Shown piece by piece: positions 19,505-42,531 of a stretch of DNA of 64,000 nt; position 1 is the first letter of the stretch, and the number at the start of each line of letters is the position of its first letter. Location: assembly GCF_021412625.1 (NCBI RefSeq), contig NZ_JAKCFI010000010.1, forward strand, positions 248,001-312,000. Direction: 5' to 3'. This DNA comes from Myxococcus stipitatus (GTDB taxonomy: Bacteria; Myxococcota; Myxococcia; Myxococcales; Myxococcaceae). The notes under the pieces were generated by a model. The model searched no databases. It saw nothing but the letters and a program-made list of their open reading frames with translations, and was not told the DNA's origin. Made by a program: the position numbers and the translations under genes.

Positions 19505-21022
19505 ATGGCGATGGAACTCAAACAAAGCCTGAAGCTCGCGCAGCAGCTGGTGATGACGCCGCAGCTGCAGCAGGCCATCAAGCTGCTCCAGCTCTCGCGG
19601 ATGGAGCTCTTGGAGCAGGTCCGGGAGGAGATGGATCAGAACCCGCTCCTGGAGCAGCCGGACGAGCAGGCGCCCGGGGACGTGGGGGACAAGGAGCCGG
19701 GGGAGGCCTCGCTGGAGGCGGACAACGTCGAGATGCCGCGCGACGTGGAGCTGCCGGCGGCCAACAGCGACACGGCGACGGAGTTCAAGGCGGATGGGGA
19801 CGGGCCCCCGGAGATCGACTGGGAGGCGTACCTCAACAGCTACCAGTTCAACGAGCCGACCACCGCGTCCAACAAGGGCAACGTGGCCACGGACGACCTG
19901 CCGTCGTTCGAGGCCAACCTGGTCAAGAAGGAGGACCTGGTCGACCACATCCAGGAGCAGCTGGGCACGCTGCGCCTGAACGACGCCGAGCGGCGCATCG
20001 CGATGCTCATCCTCGGCAACCTGGATGACGACGGCTACCTGAAGCTGCCGGACCTGGAGGGCGACCCGCTCATCCGCCTGGCCAACGAGGCGGACGTGCC
20101 CATGCACATCGCCGAGCGCACCCTGCGGCGCATCCAGATGCTGGAGCCCCGGGGCTGCGGCGCGAGGGATTTGCAGGAGTGCCTGCTCATCCAGCTGCAG
20201 GGGATGAAGGAGCCGCAGGCGCCGCTGTTGGGCCTCATCATCAAGCGGCACCTGAAGTACCTGGAGAGCAAGAACCTGCCCGCCATCGCCAAGGACCTGA
20301 AGGTCCCGCTGGAGGAGGTGGTGGCGGCGGTGAAGCTCTTGCCCAAGCTGGACCCGAAGCCGGGCCGCAACTTCAGCGGGGACGACGCGCAGTACATCAC
20401 CCCCGACGTGTTCGTCTACAAGATGGGGGACGAGTACACGGTGGTGCTCAACGACGACGGCCTGTCGAAGCTGCGCATCTCCGGCATCTATCGCAACGCG
20501 CTGAAGACGGGCGCGGTGGGCCCCGGCCAGACGAAGGACTTCATCCAGGACAAGCTGCGCAGCGCGGTGTGGCTCATCCGCTCCATCCACCAGCGGCAGC
20601 GGACCATCTACAAGGTCACCGAGAGCATCGTGAAGTTCCAGCGGGACTTCCTGGACAAGGGCATCGCGCACTTGAAGCCCCTCATCCTCCGGGACGTGGC
20701 GGAGGACATCGGCATGCACGAGTCCACGGTGAGCCGCGTGACGACGAGCAAGTACGTCCACACGCCGCAGGGCATCTTCGAGCTGAAGTACTTCTTCAAC
20801 TCGTCCATCTCCCGCGTGTCCGGCGAGGACACGGCGAGCGAGGCGGTCAAGCACCACATCAAGCAGCTGGTGGCGCAGGAGGACGCGCGCAACCCGTACT
20901 CGGACCAGAAGATCGTCGAGCTGCTTCGCGCGCAGGGCACGGAGATTGCCCGGCGCACGGTGGCCAAGTACCGCGAGGTGCTGGGCATCCTGCCGAGCAG
21001 CAAGCGCAAGCGGTACTACTGA
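19505..21022 (+). CDS. rpoN: RNA polymerase sigma-54 factor
   Basis: 505 aa, full length. The Gln/Leu-rich region I (LKQSLKLAQQLVMTPQLQQA) contacts enhancer-binding AAA+ activators. An acidic region II follows, then the core-binding domain (RRIQMLEPRGCGARDLQEC), the HTH that reads the -12 element (LRDVAEDIGMHESTVSRVT), and the C-terminal RpoN box ARRTVAKYREV that reads -24. GGGGAG lies ten bases before the ATG. Position downstream of lptB and upstream of hpf/ptsN is the conserved rpoN neighbourhood. It is required by the pxrR-type activator and pxr promoter found later in this window. Confidence 0.97.
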   Translation: MAMELKQSLKLAQQLVMTPQLQQAIKLLQLSRMELLEQVREEMDQNPLLEQPDEQAPGDVGDKEPGEASLEADNVEMPRDVELPAANSDTATEFKADGDGPPEIDWEAYLNSYQFNEPTTASNKGNVATDDLPSFEANLVKKEDLVDHIQEQLGTLRLNDAERRIAMLILGNLDDDGYLKLPDLEGDPLIRLANEADVPMHIAERTLRRIQMLEPRGCGARDLQECLLIQLQGMKEPQAPLLGLIIKRHLKYLESKNLPAIAKDLKVPLEEVVAAVKLLPKLDPKPGRNFSGDDAQYITPDVFVYKMGDEYTVVLNDDGLSKLRISGIYRNALKTGAVGPGQTKDFIQDKLRSAVWLIRSIHQRQRTIYKVTESIVKFQRDFLDKGIAHLKPLILRDVAEDIGMHESTVSRVTTSKYVHTPQGIFELKYFFNSSISRVSGEDTASEAVKHHIKQLVAQEDARNPYSDQKIVELLRAQGTEIARRTVAKYREVLGILPSSKRKRYY

Positions 21023-33779: not shown

Positions 33780-35696
33780 ATGATTGTCGGGACGGCGGGC
33801 CACATCGACCACGGCAAGACGTCCCTGGTGAAGGCGCTCACCGGCATCGACACCGACCGTCTCCAGGAGGAGAAGCGCCGGGGCATCACCCTGGAGCTGG
33901 GCTTCGCGCACCTGACGCTGGATGACGGCGCGGTGGCGGGCGTGGTCGACGTCCCGGGCCACGAGCGTTTCGTGAAGGCCATGGCCGCGGGCGCGGGCGG
34001 CGTGGACCTGGTGGTGCTGGTGGTGGCGTCGGACGAGGGCGTCATGCCCCAGACGCGTGAGCACCTGGACATCTGTCGGCTGCTCGGCGTGCGCGCGGGG
34101 GTCATCGCCCTCACCAAGTCGGACCTGCTCTCGGAGCTGGGGCCGGAGTGGCGCGCGCTGGTGGAGGCGGACCTGGCCGCGCTCACCGCGGGAACGTTCC
34201 TCGAGGGCGCGCCGGTGGTGCCCTGCTCGGCTCGCACGGGCGAGGGGCTCGCCGCGCTGCGCGCCGCGCTCACCCAGGCCGCGCTCGCGCTGGACTCGCG
34301 CCCCTCGGAGGGGCCGCTCTTCCTGCCGGTGGACCGCGTCTTCACGCTCAAGGGGTTCGGCACGGTGGTGACGGGCACGCTCCTGTCGGGCGCGGTGTCG
34401 GTGGAGGACGCGGTGTCGCTGCTGCCGGGCGCGCCGGGGCCGCTGCGCGTGCGCGGCGTGCAGCGCCATGGCCAGCCCGTGCCGCGCGCGGTGGCGGGTG
34501 AGCGCGCGGCGGTGAACCTGGGCGGCGTGGAGGCGGACGCGCTGCGCCGGGGCATGGTGCTCACGCGCGCGGGGGAGCTTCCCGAGACGCGCATGCTGGA
34601 TGTCGAGCTGTCGCTGCTGCCGGCGGCCGAGGCGCCGCTGCCGCGCCGCAAGAAGCTGCTGCTGCACCTGGGCACCGCGCAGGTGGAGGCCACGGTGGCG
34701 CTACTGGACGTGGAGAAGCTCGAGCCCGGGGAGACGACGCTCGCGCAGCTGCGGCTCGAGGAGCCCGTGGCCGCGCTCGTGGGACAGCGCTTCATCCTGC
34801 GCGGCTCCCGCGCGCTGCCCGGACGGGGGGCCACGGTGGCGGGAGGCCGCGTGCTGTCGAACGCCCCGCCCCGGCGGCGCAGGGGCGGCGCGGCCCTGGT
34901 GTCTCCGCTGCGCGAGGCGGATGCCGCGGGGCAGGTGACGTGGCTGTTGCGACAGGCGGGCTACCGGGGGCTGACGCAGGCGGAGTTGTTCGGCCGCTCG
35001 GGGCTGGCGCCCCGGGTGCTGACGCGCGCGTTGGAGCTGCTCGGCGCGCGGGGTGGGGTGGTGCTGCTGGACCGGGAGCGCCGGTGGTACCTGTCGGGAG
35101 AGGTCCTGGAGGGGCTCCAGGGGCGCTCGCTCGCGTTGTTGGCCGCCTTCCACGAGCGCGAGCCCCTGCGCGACGGGCTGCCCCGCGAGGAGCTGCGCCA
35201 GCGGTTGTCGGCGGAGCTGGACGCGCGGGCCTTCCAGCGCGTGTTGCAGGGACTGGTGGACGCGGCGAAGGTGGAGGTGGACAAGGACGTGGCGCGCCTG
35301 AGGGGGCGCGGGCGGACGCTGTCCCTGGGGGACGAGGCGGCCCGGGCGAGGCTCGCGGCGGAGCTGTCCGCGGCGGGGCTCGGCCCGCCCACCCAGGGCG
35401 AGCTGTCCCAGAAGCTCCAGCTCCCCGAGCCCCGCCTGAGGGAGCTCTTGAAGGTGCTGGCCGCCCAGGGCGTGGTGGTGCGCGTCAGCGACGACCTGTG
35501 CTTCGACGCGGGCGCCCTGGCGTCCTTGCGGGAGCGGCTGGTTGCCCACCTCCGCGAGAAGAAGGAGATTACGACCCAGGGGTTCAAGGAGCTGGTGGGA
35601 CAGAGCCGCAAGTTCGTCATTCCCCTGTCCGAGTACTTCGACCGTGAGAAGGTGACGCTCCGCGTGGGCGAGAAGCGGGTGCTGCGTCGAGGATGA
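33780..35696 (+). CDS. selB: Selenocysteine-specific translation elongation factor
   Basis: 638 aa. GTPase motifs: [20 protein letters not shown] (G1), [13 protein letters not shown] (G2), [13 protein letters not shown] (G3), TKSD (G4). EF-Tu-like beta-barrels follow, then ~270 C-terminal residues of tandem winged helices (for example [19 protein letters not shown] and [17 protein letters not shown]) that bind the SECIS hairpin. It delivers Sec-tRNASec to UGA codons. selA, selC and selD are not in the window. Its stop overlaps the pxrK start (ATGA). Confidence 0.94.
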
Positions 35697-38209
35697 GCAC
35701 GAGGCAATACAGCGAGGCGTCGCTGCGCGCCTTCATCGAACCCTTCCACAACCCCGTGCTCGCGGTGGTGGCGGGACGGGTCTTCGCGGCGAACGACGGG
35801 TACCTCGCGCTGGTGGGGTTGCCCCGCGAGCGCGTGGAGGGTCGTCCGGTCATGGACTTCGTCCAGCCGGAGGAGCGCAGCCGGCTCGCCGAGCGCTACG
35901 AGCGGGTCGGAGCGGGTGCCCCGCTGGAGGCCGTGACCCAGGTCTACCAGGTGCCCCACGCGGGGGGCGGCTCGAGGGAAGTGGCCCTCTACGCGTCCCT
36001 GCTGCCGTTGGAGGATGGGCGCCGGGCGCTGCTGCTCAACCTGTTGCCGCTGACGGAGCGGCCGCCGGAGCTGTCCATGGCCGAGCGGCTGGTGGAGACG
36101 TCCGCCAACCTGGTCTCCGCGCACTCCGAGGACGCCGTGCGCCGCGTGGCGCTCAAGGGGCTGGAGGCCGCGGGCTTCCGGGTGCGGCTGCTGCGGTGGG
36201 ATGGCGCGCGGCTGCTGCCGCTCGACGGTGGGGCGTCCCCCGAGGACATCCACCTGGGGTTGGAGGCGCTGTCGGACGGCAGGCCCGTCTTCGGCGGCGC
36301 GGGGAGCGCCGCGCCGTCGCATGTCTACATCCCCGTGGGCGGCCCCCAGGTGGAGGTGCTGCGCATGGAGGGGCCGTGGGTGGCGCCTCGCCACGGCTCG
36401 GTGCTGACGCTCTTCGCGAAGGTGGTGGGCGCGGCGCTCGCGGACGCGCGCGTGCAGGCGGACGGCGCGCGCAGCCGCTGGGAGGTGGGCGCGGTGGCGG
36501 AGATGGCGCGCTTCGTGGCGCGGCCGATACCGCCCACGCCCGAGGACTTCCTGGCGCGCGTGGCGGAGCTGCTGCTCGCCGAGGCCGCGGTGCTGCACCT
36601 GACGCAGGGCGCGGAGGGGCCCTTGTCGCTGGCGGCGCACGTGGGGCTCGTGGAGGCCGTGGGGCGGGACGGGGACGTGGAGCGGCTGGGCGCGGTGATG
36701 GCGCGCACGGTGCCGGACGCGCTCGACGGGGAGCTGTCCTCGGCGGAGCAGGCGCGCGCGCTGCGCGAGGCGTCCGCGGACCGGCTGGGCAGCGGGGCGG
36801 TGGTGCGGCTGGCGCGGGGTGGGGAGGTGCGGGGCGTGCTGCAGGTGCTGCGCGCGCCGGACCGGCCCTTCGACGCGCGGGACATCCGGCTGCTGGGCAC
36901 GCTGGCGGAGCTGCTGGTGACGCTGCTCGAGCAGCGGCGGCTGCGCTCGGAGGCCGCGCGCCAGCTCACCGAGACGCGCCTCCTGCTGGACCTGGCGCGC
37001 ACCACGTCGGGCGTGCTGGAGACCTCCAGCATCCTCGACGTGGCGTCCGACTTCCTCGTCCACCTGCTGGACGTGTCCAACTGCTACATCATGCTGTACG
37101 ACGAGGGCGCCAAGGCGCTGCGCGGCGCGGCCGCGTCGGCGGCGCACCGGGACTTCTTCCGCACGGTGGTGCTGTCGCTGAGCAGCGACAGCGTGGCGGC
37201 GCGCGCGGCGCGGGAGCGCAGGCCCGTGGCCATCGAGGACGTGGAGTCGTCCGGAGGTGGCTTCAACGCGCAGCTCGCCCAGCGCTTCGGGGAGAAGGCG
37301 CTGCTGGCGCTGCCGCTCACCTCGCGCGAGGAGCTCATCGGCGTGGTGCTGCTGGACGACACGCGGCGCGCCCGCGCCTTCGGCCCGGAGCTCATCGAGC
37401 TGGCCGAGGCGACGTGCGGACAGCTGGCGCTGTCCATCGCCAACGCGCGGCTGTACGAGTCGCTGTGGGCCAGCTACGCGGAGCTGGCGGCCACGCGCGC
37501 GGAGATGGTGAAGCGCGAGCGGCTGGCCGCGCTGGGCGAGCTGTCCGCCATCGTCGCCCACGAGGTGCGCAATCCGCTGGGCGTCATCTTCAACGCGGTG
37601 GCCTCGCTGCGGCGGCTGCTGGAGCCGAGCGGCGACGCGGGCATGTTGCTGGACATCCTGGGCGAGGAGAGCGACCGTCTCAACCGCATGGTGGGGGACC
37701 TGCTCGACTACACGCGTCCCAGGGACCCGGTGCTCCAGCACGAGGACCTGGGGCGGGTGCTCCAGGATTCGCTGGAGGCGGCGCGCGCGCAGGGCGGCGG
37801 CTCCGAGCGCACCGTCCTCATCAAGTCGGAGGTGGAGCCGGGCCTGCCCCCGGTGCCCATGGACCGCCGGCTCATCCGCCAGGCGCTGGTCAACGTCGCC
37901 GTCAACGCCATCCAGTCCATGCCGCAGGGGGGGCTGGTGCAGGTCCGCGCCCGCAGGGAGGCGCACGCGGGCCGCGAGCAGCTGCGCATCGACGTGGCGG
38001 ACCAGGGGCCGGGGATTCCCGCCGAGCTGCTCCACCGCGTCTTCGAACCCTTCTTCACCACCAAGGCCCAGGGCACGGGCCTGGGCCTGGCCGTCGTGAA
38101 ACGCATCCTGGAGGAGCACCGCGGTGAAATCGCCGTGGACAGCATTCCCGGACGCGGTACTACCTTCACCTTCCGGCTGCCCCTCTCACAGCCCCCGTCC
38201 TTCCCATGA
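35693..38209 (+). CDS. pxrK: Sensor histidine kinase, PAS plus GAF domains (PxrK-type)
   Basis: 838 aa, no signal or membrane segments, so cytosolic. Layout: PAS domain ~15-125 (NPVLAVVAGRVFAANDGYLA), a degenerate middle region ~130-270, GAF-like domains ~275-415 and ~430-585, then HisKA with phospho-acceptor His623 in IVAHEVRNPLGV and an HATPase with N box VNVAVNAIQSM, G1 DQGPGIP and G2 GTGLGLAVVKRI. It is translationally coupled to selB upstream and to the NtrC-type regulator downstream. Position directly before the regulator and the pxr-like sRNA matches M. xanthus PxrK, a positive regulator of Pxr. Signal unknown. Confidence 0.88.
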   Translation: MSTRQYSEASLRAFIEPFHNPVLAVVAGRVFAANDGYLALVGLPRERVEGRPVMDFVQPEERSRLAERYERVGAGAPLEAVTQVYQVPHAGGGSREVALYASLLPLEDGRRALLLNLLPLTERPPELSMAERLVETSANLVSAHSEDAVRRVALKGLEAAGFRVRLLRWDGARLLPLDGGASPEDIHLGLEALSDGRPVFGGAGSAAPSHVYIPVGGPQVEVLRMEGPWVAPRHGSVLTLFAKVVGAALADARVQADGARSRWEVGAVAEMARFVARPIPPTPEDFLARVAELLLAEAAVLHLTQGAEGPLSLAAHVGLVEAVGRDGDVERLGAVMARTVPDALDGELSSAEQARALREASADRLGSGAVVRLARGGEVRGVLQVLRAPDRPFDARDIRLLGTLAELLVTLLEQRRLRSEAARQLTETRLLLDLARTTSGVLETSSILDVASDFLVHLLDVSNCYIMLYDEGAKALRGAAASAAHRDFFRTVVLSLSSDSVAARAARERRPVAIEDVESSGGGFNAQLAQRFGEKALLALPLTSREELIGVVLLDDTRRARAFGPELIELAEATCGQLALSIANARLYESLWASYAELAATRAEMVKRERLAALGELSAIVAHEVRNPLGVIFNAVASLRRLLEPSGDAGMLLDILGEESDRLNRMVGDLLDYTRPRDPVLQHEDLGRVLQDSLEAARAQGGGSERTVLIKSEVEPGLPPVPMDRRLIRQALVNVAVNAIQSMPQGGLVQVRARREAHAGREQLRIDVADQGPGIPAELLHRVFEPFFTTKAQGTGLGLAVVKRILEEHRGEIAVDSIPGRGTTFTFRLPLSQPPSFP

Positions 38210-39651
38210 CCGACGCGAACACCCCGCCGTCCCGTGGACGCATCCTCGTGGTGGACGACCAGCGCAACATGCGCGCCACCACCGCGCTGCTCCTGCGCGC
38301 CGAGCAGTACACCGTCTTCGAGGCCGCCACCGGCGAGGAGGCCCTGGCGCACCTGGCGGGCGGCAGCATGGACCTGTTGCTGACCGACCTGAAGATGGAG
38401 CCCATGGACGGGCTGACGCTCCTGCGGCGCGCGCTGGAGGTCGCCCCCCGGCTCCAGGTCATCATGATGACGGCCTTCGGCTCCATCGAGAGCGCGGTGG
38501 AGGCCATGCGCCTGGGCGCGTACGACTACGTCACCAAGCCCTTCAAGGAGAGCGAGCTGCGCTACCGCGTGGAGCGCGCATTGGAGCGGGCGCGCCTGCT
38601 GCGCGACGTGGACAACCTCGCCACGGACTTCAACCAGCGCCACGGCCTGTCCGCGCTGGTGGGCCGCAGCGCGGCCATGCGCGACCTCACCACGCGGCTG
38701 ATGCGCGTGGCCCAGTCGGACGCCACCGTCCTCATCCAGGGGGAGAGCGGCACGGGCAAGGAGCTGGTGGCGCGGGCGCTGCACGCGCACAGCCGCCGCA
38801 AGGGGCGCTCCTTCGTGCCCGTCAACTGCGCGGCCATCAGCGAGACGCTGCTGGAGAGCGAGCTGTTCGGTCACGCCAAGGGGGCCTTCACCGGCGCGGT
38901 GAAGGCGCGCAGGGGCCTCTTCGAGGAGGCCGACGGAGGCACCCTCTTCATCGACGAGGTGACGGAGACCAGCCCCACCTTCCAGTCGAAGCTGCTGCGC
39001 GCCCTCCAGGAGGGCGAGGTGCGCCGCGTGGGCGAGTCCACCGCGCTGCGCGTGGACGTGCGCACCGTGGCCGCCACCAACCGCGACATCGAGCTGGAGG
39101 TGCGGGAGAAGCGCTTCCGCCAGGACCTCTACTACCGCCTCAACGTGGTGACGCTGCGGGTGCCGCCCCTGCGCGAGCGCTTGGAGGACGTCCCCGCGCT
39201 GGCGGAGCACTTCCTGGAGCGCGCCAACGCCCGCAGCCCCAACCCCAAGCGCCTGTCGGCCTCGGCCGTGACCCACCTGATGGGCTACACCTTCCCCGGC
39301 AACGTGCGCGAGCTGGAGAACCTGGTGGAGCAGGCGGCCGCCCTCGCGGAGGGCGACGAGCTGTTGCCCGAGGACTTTCCCCTGCGTCAGGCGCGCCTGG
39401 CGCCCGTGCAGGAGACCTCCAGCGTCTCGCCCCTGGATGGACAGGCCCTCTCGGGCGGCGGCGCCAGCACCGGACCGACCCTGGCCCAGGTGGTGGAGGA
39501 GGCCGAGCGCCGCGCCATCGCCCAGTCCCTGGAGCGCCACGGCGTGGACCTGGCCCGCGTCGCGGATGAGCTGGGCGTCTCGTCCACCACCCTGTGGCGG
39601 AAGATGAAGCGCCTCAACCTGCGCCCCCCCAGCGAGGCCTCCCGCGAGTAG
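38206..39651 (+). CDS. pxrR: Sigma-54-dependent response regulator, NtrC family (PxrR-type)
   Basis: 481 aa. Receiver domain with acidic pocket D17-D18 and phospho-acceptor Asp61 (LLLTDLKMEPMDG). AAA+ domain with Walker A GESGTGKE near 178, sigma-54 contact loop GAFTGA at 226-231, and Walker B GGTLFIDEV. C-terminal Fis-type HTH VADELGVSSTTLWRKMKRL. It should be phosphorylated by the coupled kinase and activate a sigma-54 promoter; a near-perfect one lies 212 nt past its stop. Gene order regulator, sRNA, GNAT matches M. xanthus pxrR. Confidence 0.92.
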   Translation: MTDANTPPSRGRILVVDDQRNMRATTALLLRAEQYTVFEAATGEEALAHLAGGSMDLLLTDLKMEPMDGLTLLRRALEVAPRLQVIMMTAFGSIESAVEAMRLGAYDYVTKPFKESELRYRVERALERARLLRDVDNLATDFNQRHGLSALVGRSAAMRDLTTRLMRVAQSDATVLIQGESGTGKELVARALHAHSRRKGRSFVPVNCAAISETLLESELFGHAKGAFTGAVKARRGLFEEADGGTLFIDEVTETSPTFQSKLLRALQEGEVRRVGESTALRVDVRTVAATNRDIELEVREKRFRQDLYYRLNVVTLRVPPLRERLEDVPALAEHFLERANARSPNPKRLSASAVTHLMGYTFPGNVRELENLVEQAAALAEGDELLPEDFPLRQARLAPVQETSSVSPLDGQALSGGGASTGPTLAQVVEEAERRAIAQSLERHGVDLARVADELGVSSTTLWRKMKRLNLRPPSEASRE

Positions 39652-39734
39652 GGGGAGGCACGCCGTGGAACTTTCCCGTCCGTTCGAATTCAGAACCGAA
39701 ATCGGGGCGGTTCACCGATGAAAAACCCAATCGG

Positions 39735-39785
39735 CTGAAATCGTTACCTTTTTTCAGTTCTGCAAGGCGATTTCAGGCATGAAAT
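39735..39785 (+). promoter_or_regulatory. Inverted-repeat array, candidate enhancer for the NtrC-type regulator
   Basis: CTGAAATCG (39735-39743) and CGATTTCAG (39768-39776) are a perfect 9-bp inverted repeat. The core TTTCAG recurs at 39752-39757, and ATTTCA-GGCA-TGAAAT spans 39770-39785. The sites lie about 105-155 nt upstream of the predicted sRNA start, the usual enhancer distance. The tract is locally AT-rich, unlike its surroundings. Function is inferred. Confidence 0.5.
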
Positions 39786-39862
39786 GCAGTCCGGCCGGCA
39801 AGCACGACCCCGTGGCGGCTCTAAGTACTTGAGAAAACTAGGTTTTGTCCGGACGAAGACAC

Positions 39863-39879
39863 TGGCACGGCGACTGCTA
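39863..39879 (+). promoter_or_regulatory. Sigma-54 (-24/-12) promoter of the pxr-like sRNA
   Basis: TGGCACGGCGACTGCTA: GG at 39864-39865, exactly ten bases, GC at 39876-39877. It agrees with the TGGCAC-N5-TTGC consensus except one T in the -12 box. The start is predicted near 39889. The upstream neighbour encodes a sigma-54 activator. Confidence 0.85.
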
Positions 39880-39888
39880 AAGAAATCC

Positions 39889-40010
39889 ACGGGACACATC
39901 GAAGCGAGGCTGAAGGCGGTTCCCCCCCACCCCTTCAGCACTTCCGGTGAGTCACCTTCAGAAGACCCGCGGCCCGGTGCTCCTCACGGAGCGCTGGGCC
40001 GCCTTCTTTT
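39889..40010 (+). ncRNA. pxr: Pxr-like small RNA (developmental repressor sRNA)
   Basis: Predicted ~122-nt transcript with three stem-loops. SL1: GCTGAAGG (39909-39916) pairs with CCTTCAGC (39932-39939), its loop holding seven consecutive C (39922-39928). SL2: GGTG-AGT-CACC (39946-39956). SL3: a 15-bp terminator stem (39969-40002). No credible reading frame. In M. xanthus, Pxr is a sigma-54-dependent sRNA that blocks fruiting-body development while nutrients are abundant. As I recall, the evolved PX strain carries a change within a run of seven C in SL1. It lies between the NtrC-like regulator and GNAT genes there, exactly as here. Start estimated from the promoter. Confidence 0.85.
39969..40010 (+). 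terminator. Rho-independent terminator of the pxr-like sRNA
   Basis: GCGGCCC (39969-39975) pairs with GGGCCGC (39996-40002), continued by eight more pairs including two G-U, closed by loop TCAC (39984-39987) and followed by CTTCTTTT ending at 40010. Confidence 0.85.
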
Positions 40011-40060
40011 GGGCCCTTGAAGTCCGAGCCGCTGGGTGTCCCCCACGGTAGCCTTCGCTC

Positions 40061-40900
40061 ATGAAGGACGAAGTGCGACAGGGGCCCTGGCGGCTGCGCG
40101 CCGCGCGGGTGGACGACCTCGCGGCCTTCTCGCGGCTGTTCACGGAGCTGGGGGTGGATGAGCCACCGCCCGACCTGGCGCAGTGGGAGCGCGAGCTGGC
40201 GGCCCGGACGTGGATGGTGGACGGGCCGGGTGGGGTGGCGGGCTACACGACGACGGACGTGCTGGGGGCGCTGGGGTACGTGCAGCAGCTCGTCATGGAT
40301 GCGTCCGCGCGGCGGCGGGGCCTGGGGCGGTGGGTGATGCGCCAGGTGGCGGAGGACTTCCGCGCGCGCGGCTGCCGTGAGTGGACGCTCAACGTGAAGC
40401 GGGACAACGCCGCCGCGCTCGCGCTCTATGCCTCGCTGGGACTGCGGCCCTCGCGGCAGGCGGTGAACCTGGGGGTGACGCGGCGGCAGGTGGAGACGCT
40501 TCCGCCCGCTCCCGCCGGAGTCTCGGTGGTGCCCGCGGTGGAGGCGGACTGGCCCTCGCTGACGGAGTCCTTCGGGCTGCTGCCGGGGAAGCTCGCGCGC
40601 TTCGCGACGCTCGACTCGCACCGGCTGCTGCGGTTGTCCCGCGCGAACGGAGGCGAGGTGCTGGGGATGATGGACGTGCGAGTCCCCTCCGCGGTGCTGT
40701 TCCCCTTCTTCGCGGTGTCCGCGGGACACGCGCGCGCGCTGCTGGAGCAGGCCTTCGCGCTGCTCGGCGACGCCCGTGACGCGGTGGGCGTGGTGGTGAC
40801 GGACGACGCGGCGCTGGAGCGGCGGCTGCGCGAGGCGGGCGCGGTGGCGCGGCTCGAGACGTTCGAGCTGCGCGGGCCGCTGCCCGAGCCCGTGCCTTGA
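40061..40900 (+). CDS. GNAT-family N-acetyltransferase
   Basis: 279 aa. N-terminal GNAT domain ~10-140: LGYVQQLVMDASARRRGLGR with the acetyl-CoA loop RRRGLGRWV, then LNVKRDNAAALALYASLGLR. The second half (~155-279) looks like a degenerate second GNAT fold lacking the loop. Substrate unknown. It is the gene immediately downstream of pxr in M. xanthus as well. No Shine-Dalgarno; a TAGCCT hexamer ends six bases before the ATG. Weak read-through from the sRNA is also possible. Confidence 0.82.
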   Translation: MKDEVRQGPWRLRAARVDDLAAFSRLFTELGVDEPPPDLAQWERELAARTWMVDGPGGVAGYTTTDVLGALGYVQQLVMDASARRRGLGRWVMRQVAEDFRARGCREWTLNVKRDNAAALALYASLGLRPSRQAVNLGVTRRQVETLPPAPAGVSVVPAVEADWPSLTESFGLLPGKLARFATLDSHRLLRLSRANGGEVLGMMDVRVPSAVLFPFFAVSAGHARALLEQAFALLGDARDAVGVVVTDDAALERRLREAGAVARLETFELRGPLPEPVP

Positions 40901-40971: not shown

Positions 40972-42531
40972 CTACAGGCCGAAGATGCGGCTGGCCTGCT
41001 GCAGCCACGTGGTGATGGGGCCGGGGAGGATGCCCAGCACCACGACGGCGGCGGTGGAGAGCACCAGCGTGAGCTCGGTGGACCAGCTGCGCTCGAGCGT
41101 CTGGGCGCCCTCGGGCACCGGACGCATGAACATGTAGACCACCACGCGCAGGTAGTAATAGACGCCCGCCGCGCTCGACAGCACGCCCACGACGGCCAGA
41201 CCGACGAGGCCCGAGTCCACCGCGCTCTGGAAGATGAGCAGCTTGCTCATGAAGCCGATGGTGGGGGGAATCCCGCCCAGCGACAGCATGAACGCGGCCA
41301 TGGCCACCGCCCAACCCGGACGGCGCTGCGCCAGCCCGCTGAAGCGCTCCAGGTCCCACGCGGTTCCCTTCTCCTCGTCCTCGCGGCGCTCCAGCGCGGA
41401 CACCATGGCGAAGGCGCCCACCGCGCTGAACGTGTACGCCAGCAGGTAGAAGAGGATGCCGCGCAGGGCCTGCGCGCGCGCCAGGTCCACCGGCGTGCCG
41501 CCCGTCAGCTCGGACGGGCCGAGCAGGCGGAACTGCTCGCCCGGGCCGGTGACGAACAGCGCCGCCACGCCCACCAGCAGGTAGCCGGCGTGCGCGATGG
41601 ACGAGTACGCCAGCATGCGCTTCACGTTGCGCTGCGGAATCGCCAGCAGGTTGCCCGCCACCATGGTGAGGAAGGCCAGCACGGAGAAGAGCACCAGCGG
41701 CAGGTGCGGGTCGATGCCCTTGCCCAGCGTGAGGAACACGCGCACCAGCGCCGCGAAGGCCGCGGCCTTCACGCCCGCGCTCATCAGCGCCGTCACCGGC
41801 GTGGGGGCGCCCTCGTACACGTCCGGCGTCCACATGTGGAACGGCACCGCCGCGACCTTGAAGGCGAAGCCAGCGCCCACCAGGATGAGGCCCGCGTAGA
41901 CCAGCAGCGGCTGCGCCGCGAGCGCGCCCGACAGCGGGCCCACCATGTCCGTCAGCTTCGTCGTGCCCGTGGCGCCGTACAGCAGCGCGGCGCCGTACAG
42001 CAGCACCGCCGACGAGAACGCGCCCAGGATGAAGTACTTGAAGCCCGCCTCGCTCGGCCGCGTGCCGCGCCGCAGGTACGACGTCAGCGCGTAGGTGGCG
42101 ATGGAGAGGACCTCCAGGTTGACGAAGAGGGTGATGAGCTCGTTCGACATGGCCAGCAGGCTCATGCCCGCCGCGGCGAACAGCATCAGCGCGTAGAACT
42201 CGCCGCGCTCCGCGCCGCGCTTGCGCAGGAAGCTCACGGAGCTGAGCGCCGCCAGCCCCAGGCCCACGCACACCACGAAGGTGAGGAAGCTGGAGAAGGG
42301 GTCCAGCACGCCGAAGCCGAGGAACACCTCCTGCGCCGGCTCGAACATGGCCGTCAGCGCCGCGATGCCGGCCGCCACCGCCGTTACCACGGTGAGCACG
42401 GCCTGGTAGGCGCGCGACGAGGTGGCGCCGAGGAACACCTCCGACAGCAGCAGGATGGAGGCGCCCACCACCATGATGATGGCGGGAATCAGCGGGAGGA
42501 AGTCTGCCAGGGTGAGGTTGGGCAGGTTCAT
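40972..42531 (-). CDS. nuoN: NADH-quinone oxidoreductase subunit N
   Basis: 519 aa polytopic antiporter-like subunit of complex I with about 14 membrane segments. Diagnostic segments: AAVPFHMWTPDVYEGAPTPV and NVKRMLAYSSIAHAGYLLVG, carrying the conserved proton-channel lysine and histidine. Last gene of the nuoEFJKLMN operon, 19 nt after nuoM, followed by a hairpin. Confidence 0.94.
   Translation of the reverse strand: MNLPNLTLADFLPLIPAIIMVVGASILLLSEVFLGATSSRAYQAVLTVVTAVAAGIAALTAMFEPAQEVFLGFGVLDPFSSFLTFVVCVGLGLAALSSVSFLRKRGAERGEFYALMLFAAAGMSLLAMSNELITLFVNLEVLSIATYALTSYLRRGTRPSEAGFKYFILGAFSSAVLLYGAALLYGATGTTKLTDMVGPLSGALAAQPLLVYAGLILVGAGFAFKVAAVPFHMWTPDVYEGAPTPVTALMSAGVKAAAFAALVRVFLTLGKGIDPHLPLVLFSVLAFLTMVAGNLLAIPQRNVKRMLAYSSIAHAGYLLVGVAALFVTGPGEQFRLLGPSELTGGTPVDLARAQALRGILFYLLAYTFSAVGAFAMVSALERREDEEKGTAWDLERFSGLAQRRPGWAVAMAAFMLSLGGIPPTIGFMSKLLIFQSAVDSGLVGLAVVGVLSSAAGVYYYLRVVVYMFMRPVPEGAQTLERSWSTELTLVLSTAAVVVLGILPGPITTWLQQASRIFGL

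Follow-up and report, generated by a model that had tools for sequence, protein, structure and literature searches.

The window, that is, the whole 64-kb stretch of DNA analysed here, holds a non-coding region between an NtrC-type regulator gene (38206-39651) and a GNAT gene (40061-40900), just as the original prediction had described it. Scanning the entire window with Rfam returned RF01812 (Pxr) as the sole match over threshold; it lies on the plus strand at 39902-40010, scores 113.7 bits against a threshold of 80 (E 1.4e-19) and spans model positions 1-109 of 109. The features of the locus, in window coordinates, are as follows.

35693-38209, plus strand: pxrK ortholog, a histidine kinase (PAS, GAF, HisKA, HATPase_c), in the M. 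xanthus order (PMC5684412)
38206-39651, plus strand: pxrR ortholog, an NtrC-type sigma-54 activator (Response_reg, Sigma54_activat, HTH_8)
39735-39785, unstranded: candidate PxrR sites, namely CTGAAAT at 39735-39741, TTTCAGTTCTGCAA at 39752-39765 and the palindrome ATTTCAGGCATGAAAT at 39770-39785
39863-39877, plus strand: sigma-54 promoter, -24 TGGCAC at 39863-39868 and -12 GC at 39876-39877; start expected near 39889
about 39889-40010, plus strand: predicted primary Pxr transcript of about 122 nt, its start taken from the promoter and its end from the terminator
39891-39901, plus strand: 5' arm (leader) of the helix P0, outside the Rfam model; pair probabilities 0.82-0.999, covariation
39902-40010, plus strand: RF01812 (Pxr) match, model positions 1-109 of 109
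39906-39943, plus strand: SL1, apical loop at 39921-39928 with seven C at 39922-39928
39945-39956, plus strand: 3' arm of P0, overlapping the published SL2 hairpin (39946-39949 with 39953-39956)
39969-40010, plus strand: SL3 terminator, stem at 39969-40002 followed by a T-tract
40061-40900, plus strand: pxrA homolog, a GNAT acetyltransferase, starting 50 nt past the pxr terminator
40972-42531, minus strand: nuoN-type gene, convergent, a neighbour conserved at the pxr locus

The gene order in M. xanthus is pxrK-pxrR-pxr (PMC5684412), and its pxr neighbours include pxrA (PMC11928866) and an NADH dehydrogenase gene (PMC5568312). The published location rule places pxr between the sigma-54 regulator pxrR and the NADH dehydrogenase gene (PMC5568312), and the window gene follows it, with PxrR upstream and PxrA, then NuoN, downstream. 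The closest named relative among the loci compared is Myxococcus dinghuensis (L115), to which PxrR is 96%, PxrA 80% and NuoN 98% identical.

The original prediction had taken the region for a copy of Pxr, a small RNA that keeps Myxococcus from building fruiting bodies, and proposed a covariance-model search as a check. This interpretation is supported, as the match is full-length and over the curated threshold, and the promoter, C7 loop, terminator and neighbours are as in M. xanthus pxr; the observation as it had been described was partly confirmed. Set against Pxr of M. xanthus (RF01812), the window copy agrees with the sequence and structure model from end to end, in its neighbours pxrK, pxrR and pxrA, and in its sigma-54 promoter, C7 loop and SL3 terminator. 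Nothing in the window copy is different; the helix P0 proposed below changes the model of the whole family, and M. xanthus-like copies (L009) have the same leader pairing.

The genome has a single Pxr copy above the Rfam threshold. Two weak hits (30.1 and 21.8 bits) were rejected as second copies, being the 3' ends and terminators of cold-shock-type genes, a type judged by eye. Terminators behind two cold-shock-type genes (L002 1501-1600 and L003 1501-1653) resemble SL3 enough to score with Pxr models. The only match in the genome to PF04552, the DNA-binding domain of sigma-54, marks rpoN at about 20537-21013 (plus strand) of the window, roughly 19 kb before pxr. The window gene is an ordinary pxr, the only one in a Myxococcus close to M. 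dinghuensis, and by orthology Pxr would repress development in this species too. For the window alone, the result is a known RNA found in another Myxococcus.

Promoter, transcript and fold

The promoter has the form TGGCAC-N7-GC. As TGGCAC-N6-TGC occurs once in the 64-kb window and 1.03 occurrences are expected by chance, the motif alone proves nothing, and since random stretches often score alike (99th percentile 14.0), the evidence for the promoter lies in its fixed position and not in its score. Of 78 distinct Myxococcaceae copies, a set that leaves out L042:3616, which is not a pxr, 76 carry a GG/GC element that precedes the SL1 core by 48-56 nt; the two exceptions are L060 and L061 of genus g21. 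These two copies (L060 2761-2870, L061 3058-3167) have neither pxrR nor nuoN adjoining and, like L235 2969-3092, carry no recognisable sigma-54 element, so that a change of promoter is possible in all three.

Upstream of the promoter, CTGAAAT/ATTTCAG, often palindromic, is the most enriched 7-mer across 32 loci (23 occurrences against 0.7 expected), although these loci are homologous and other enriched 7-mers resemble the end of the pxrR coding sequence. We regard these as candidate PxrR sites. A transcript start near 39889, as the promoter implies, would fit an RNA of about 122 nt. The terminator scan found a 15-pair stem at 39969-40002 before the T-tract; since 0.8 such sites are expected in shuffles, the scan by itself is weak.

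The sigma-54 promoter, the seven C in the SL1 loop and the U-tract terminator of the original prediction were all recovered. SL1 is predicted as a hairpin slightly longer than the 39909-39939 it had been given. Of the three stem-loops that had been proposed, SL1 and SL3 are predicted in the full-length RNA and a separate SL2 is not. The PX mutation, in the fifth base of the loop (PMC5684412), corresponds here to 39925.

The predicted full-length RNA folds with a z-score of -6.66, and none of 200 shuffles was equally stable. In its best fold the leader at 39891-39901 pairs with 39945-39956 and forms a closing helix, P0, around SL1. This helix uses the same bases as the published SL2 hairpin, and the pair probabilities in the full-length RNA are 0.82-0.999 for P0 and 0.0001 for SL2. 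The best fold has an energy of -67.1 kcal/mol; if the leader is kept unpaired, this becomes -60.1 kcal/mol and SL2 appears, so that SL2 is predicted only with the leader absent or held open. The Rfam match begins at 39902, after the 5' arm, and the Rfam model is therefore without P0.

The same pairing recurs across the family. Of 77 distinct copies, 76 have at least six P0 pairs in their best fold (the exception is L037:2583) and three have an SL2-like hairpin, the set leaving out L042:3616 and L077:5598, the latter cut by a contig end. The C-run of these copies is C7 in 68, C6 in eight and C8 in one. In a swap test on 29 representatives of the 78 copies (one or two per genus), leaders paired with their own linkers at a mean duplex energy of -14.28, compared with -10.33 (sd 0.53) for permuted linkers, and none of 20000 permutations was as low; four of the 29 (g2, g3, g13, g17) were not better than their own trans mean, the start in g13 being mis-assigned.

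Covariation agrees with this picture. On a sequence-only alignment of 36 copies, RNAalifold found P0, SL1 and SL3 and no SL2. P0 covariation was 0.583 as against 0.252 (sd 0.026) in shuffles and 0.127-0.175 in slid registers; over 40 sequences from six families, promoter included, it was 0.653 against 0.265 (sd 0.023) in shuffles and 0.088-0.174 in slid registers, with 85.3% of cells paired. The tool warns that shuffles do not remove relatedness among the copies; slid registers do. Covariation of the published SL2 was 0.296 against 0.238 in shuffles (32 of 500 as high), and its cells were 64.2% paired against 57.5% (9 of 500 as high), a weak signal in which one pair is split by an alignment gap. 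Taken at the level of predicted folds, these results suggest that the published Pxr shape misses a conserved stem formed by the 5' leader. No mention of such a helix was found in the accessible passages of open-licence papers on Pxr.

Distribution of Pxr and its one-hairpin relatives

Within the order, the Rfam model found a match at E 0.001 in 93 of 145 genomes (61 over the curated threshold), all of them in family f1, which has 96 genomes. The model R1, built from 36 f1 copies so as to cover P0 as well, scored at least 46 bits in 95 of the 96, missing only G134, which is 85% complete. Its matches include three g23 genomes of 2.1-2.7 Mb that retain pxr beside nuoN. No PxrR ortholog was found in these three, their best NtrC-type proteins being 46-47% identical, in a search that reached only 47-49% in five other f1 genomes; at other f1 loci holding most of the gene, PxrR is 68-100% identical. 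The rpoN gene was found in two of the three, and the fruiting ability of g23, judged from genome size, is doubtful.

Several loci depart from the single-copy arrangement. In L035, L036, L040 and L071 pxr is repeated four or five times in tandem at intervals of about 290-330 nt, every copy having its own promoter, and divergent second copies, each with a sigma-54 element, occur at L045 2805-2919, L050 2674-2784 and L236 2103-2222; neither PxrR nor NuoN was seen beside these in the L045 and L050 loci or in the 3.4-kb stretch of L236. A record titled Comamonas sp. KCTC 72670 (L091) contains a Myxococcus-type pxr locus with PxrR 90% and NuoN 88% identical to those of the window, and this genome is probably mislabelled or contaminated. 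Four non-myxobacterial matches (L076, L086, L092, L112) were dismissed as chance, the letters examined having no Pxr promoter or terminator context. A second core match in L042 was also rejected; it lies inside nuoN on the other strand.

For the neighbour pxrA, published work that required E < 1e-100 and > 80% similarity reports the protein from only a few species of Myxococcus (PMC11928866). By tblastn, pxr is immediately followed by a homolog of 48-55% identity in Archangium lansinium (L079), A. violaceum (L080), Hyalangium versicolor (L111) and genome G121 (L057); the search gave no homolog next to pxr in the loci of Corallococcus and Citreicoccus or in those deep genera that have retained pxr. 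The homologs in Archangium and Hyalangium indicate that pxrA is probably older, and more often lost, than published.

Read one by one, the weak R1 hits outside f1 proved in many cases to be terminators and in others to be clear relatives of a simpler form. Three f3 loci (L232, L233, L234) have a PxrR homolog upstream (60-63% over the part within the locus) and NuoN downstream (58-59%), and between them a TGGCAC-N5-TTGC promoter followed by one hairpin of about 77 nt with GGTCCCCCCCCGCC at its tip. The base stem of this hairpin runs directly into the T-tract, so that P0 doubles as the terminator and there is no SL3. Two of the three loci may belong to Anaeromyxobacter, which is not known to fruit. 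PxrR homologs of 57-64% adjoin such hairpins in further f3, f6 and f9 genomes; none was found in the flanks read in f2, f4, f5, f7 and f8. Three tandem one-hairpin relatives stand beside a PxrR homolog in L247 (G041:C158), which indicates that tandem copies arose outside Myxococcaceae too. By eye, the R1 hits in G140, G007, G027, G001, G038, G036, G145, G005, G030, G022 and G137:C44, and the second R1 hits in G112 and G061, were rejected as terminators behind genes; several of the genomes with rejected hits had other hits scored later by R2 or R3.

Across the phylum, a model of the promoter and P0-SL1 (R2) found a match at E 0.01 in 129 of 195 genomes. A further model, R3, matched 40 of the 49 genomes that the order has outside f1 (E 0.001), having been trained on many of the 49 and with some hits taken on score without reading by eye, both at 35.7-38.8 bits (G001, G004, G007, G028, G032, G036) and among the strong ones (e.g. 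G013, G015, G016, G017, G019). In 50 further genomes (48 outside the class and two f10 genomes inside it) R3 had a match in 14 at E 0.05 and in three at E 0.001; these three (G155, G160, G188) are R3 training members found first by R2 at 1.7e-4, 1.8e-4 and 1.1e-6, and the E-values of these covariance models are rough, according to the description of the tool. G188, the strongest outside the class, has AT-rich flanks, a C9 loop and the order pxrK (49%), pxrR (59%), hairpin. All 47 sequences of the widest alignment (A3), which leaves out six of the 27 loci read and 14 of the 40 rows of A2, carry a C-run of C5 to C10 in the apical loop of the predicted fold.

The origin of Pxr has been placed at the base of or within the Cystobacterineae, now the order Myxococcales, in the passages available from three papers (PMC5568312, PMC5684412, PMC8538405), and the Pxr passages of the last do not report it in Anaeromyxobacter. 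Our sequence searches agree with this origin, the order being a minimum age for Pxr, and would extend it by a one-hairpin version of the RNA and by one or more loci beyond the class. The original prediction saw in the window gene a conserved copy of a key developmental switch; it is indeed a conserved copy of pxr, but the link to fruiting bodies needs revising because relatives of the RNA occur in lineages of unknown or doubtful fruiting ability. The core unit, a sigma-54-driven C-loop hairpin beside PxrR, appears to predate the control of fruiting bodies.

Proposed mode of action and alternative explanations

Published work has established that PxrR is essential for Pxr synthesis, that RNase D matures a Pxr precursor and that Pxr occurs in a long form, Pxr-L, and a short one, Pxr-S. 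SL3 is required for Pxr accumulation (PMC5684412), and a C-to-A change in the loop abolishes function (PMC5568312). The explanation that we favour, and hold to be likely, is a single pxr from which PxrK/PxrR and sigma-54 drive an RNA of about 122 nt with two domains, P0-SL1 and SL3, and a C7 seed. To judge from the sequence and from work in M. xanthus, PxrK and PxrR would act via sigma-54 and probably via the upstream CTGAAAT palindromes. The RNA is predicted to form a composite hairpin, P0-SL1, with seven C in the apical loop, in which P0 is supported by covariation, and a terminator, SL3. The C7 loop would be a seed: by pairing with G-rich RNA it would keep that RNA from being used as long as nutrients abound. 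The 5' leader is predicted to select the shape, giving P0 and no SL2 when present and SL2 when absent, and removal of the leader could, speculatively, be the step of processing from Pxr-L to Pxr-S.

In a target scan, TGGGGGGRAA occurred at 31 sites in G125, 24 in G126 and 14 in G127, counting the pxr locus, and the reversed pattern at 30, 12 and 21 sites, respectively; the target pattern was in excess in just one of the three. Based on the longest reading frame at each site, no target protein shared between genomes was found at E 1e-10, in a scan that covered three small genomes and one exact pattern and left out sites without a reading frame. One pair of conserved-looking target sites (L142, L172) was rejected, being by eye codons on the opposite strand. 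RepG of Helicobacter pylori targets a G-repeat by means of a C/U-rich loop. The CcsR/alpha-r15-type sRNAs of alphaproteobacteria likewise have C-rich hairpin loops, but these resemble anti-Shine-Dalgarno CCUCC motifs and not a pure C-run as in Pxr. The G-repeat targeted by RepG lies in an mRNA leader (PMC8295292). For Pxr the likeness to RepG is by analogy only; the three-genome scan gave no G-run target shared between genomes.

The main rival to an RNA seed is a protein ligand, with the C loop binding a protein instead of G-rich RNA and Pxr serving as a protein sponge or scaffold. We know of no protein partner of Pxr. The lack of a shared seed site in the three genomes speaks for a protein, and a loop that keeps its apical place at lengths from C5 to C10 suits a protein site equally; on the other side, that scan was narrow (three small genomes, one exact pattern, the longest frame per site), and the single C-to-A change that ends function fits a seed equally (PMC5568312). 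We consider a protein ligand unlikely on balance. A purely local role, in which the element acts mainly in cis as a leader or terminator control of pxrA, is very improbable in our judgement. It is true that pxrA begins 50 nt after the terminator, that deleting pxr raises MXAN_1079 (pxrA) more than any other transcript and that pairing near its promoter has been proposed (PMC11928866); but in Corallococcus, Citreicoccus and the deep genera pxr has no pxrA next to it, the published constructs work from an integrated copy (PMC5568312, PMC5684412) and restored pxr lowers pxrA (PMC11928866).

The shape of the RNA has its own alternative in the published model, in which an RNA starting near 39902 has the three hairpins SL1, SL2 and SL3. 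On this view the leader belongs only to the promoter-proximal DNA, and the match between leader and linker is a coincidence or has to do with the DNA. A start at 39902 would lie 25 nt past the -12 GC, a distance longer than in any sigma-54 case known to us. The P0 covariation, far above shuffles and slid registers, and the swap test with 0 of 20000 also count against this model; for it are the published gene length of 108 nt (PMC5568312), the start of the Rfam match, the prediction of SL2 once the leader is open or absent (-60.1 kcal/mol) and the weak pairing signal of SL2. Taken together, the published model seems to us distinctly improbable.

If, as we prefer, the leader is part of the RNA and forms P0, it may bear on a published failure of complementation. 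Foreign pxr alleles were tested behind a 429-nt upstream stretch of M. xanthus (PMC5568312) that, by the start position proposed here, would include the M. xanthus leader. Single-copy alleles and second Cystobacter paralogs were functional in M. xanthus, and Cystobacter paralogs 1 and 3 failed, with little or no Pxr-S (PMC5568312). The leader of the M. xanthus-like L009 gives -5.8, -9.6 and -6.1 kcal/mol with copies 1, 2 and 3 of Archangium violaceum Cb vi76 (L077, L080), against -11.5 for its native pair. The order of these energies fits, and a mismatched leader in the chimeras could possibly help to explain the failed paralogs, although the comparison has three points and comes from strains other than those of the paper, so that the alleles may not be the published ones. 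Against this reading, four of the five copies in Archangium L035 score better with the foreign leader than with their own.

On the wider history we see roughly even chances that Pxr is the Myxococcaceae branch of an old Myxococcota family of sigma-54-driven C-loop hairpin RNAs, whose ancestral single hairpin combined a terminator stem and a C-seed loop beside PxrR. In Myxococcaceae the stem would have become P0, SL3 would have taken over termination and the leader would have gained control of shape; the first job of the RNA would not have been fruiting bodies, and the mismatched leader of the chimeras would help to explain the two failed Cystobacter paralogs. The authors of the work on Pxr state that its direct targets are not known, and the fold of the RNA is a predicted one. 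P0 offers a test, at the level of base pairs, of how Pxr is shaped and processed. The one-hairpin relatives are a minimal version of the RNA, some of them in bacteria that possibly do not fruit, and the original target could be sought there.
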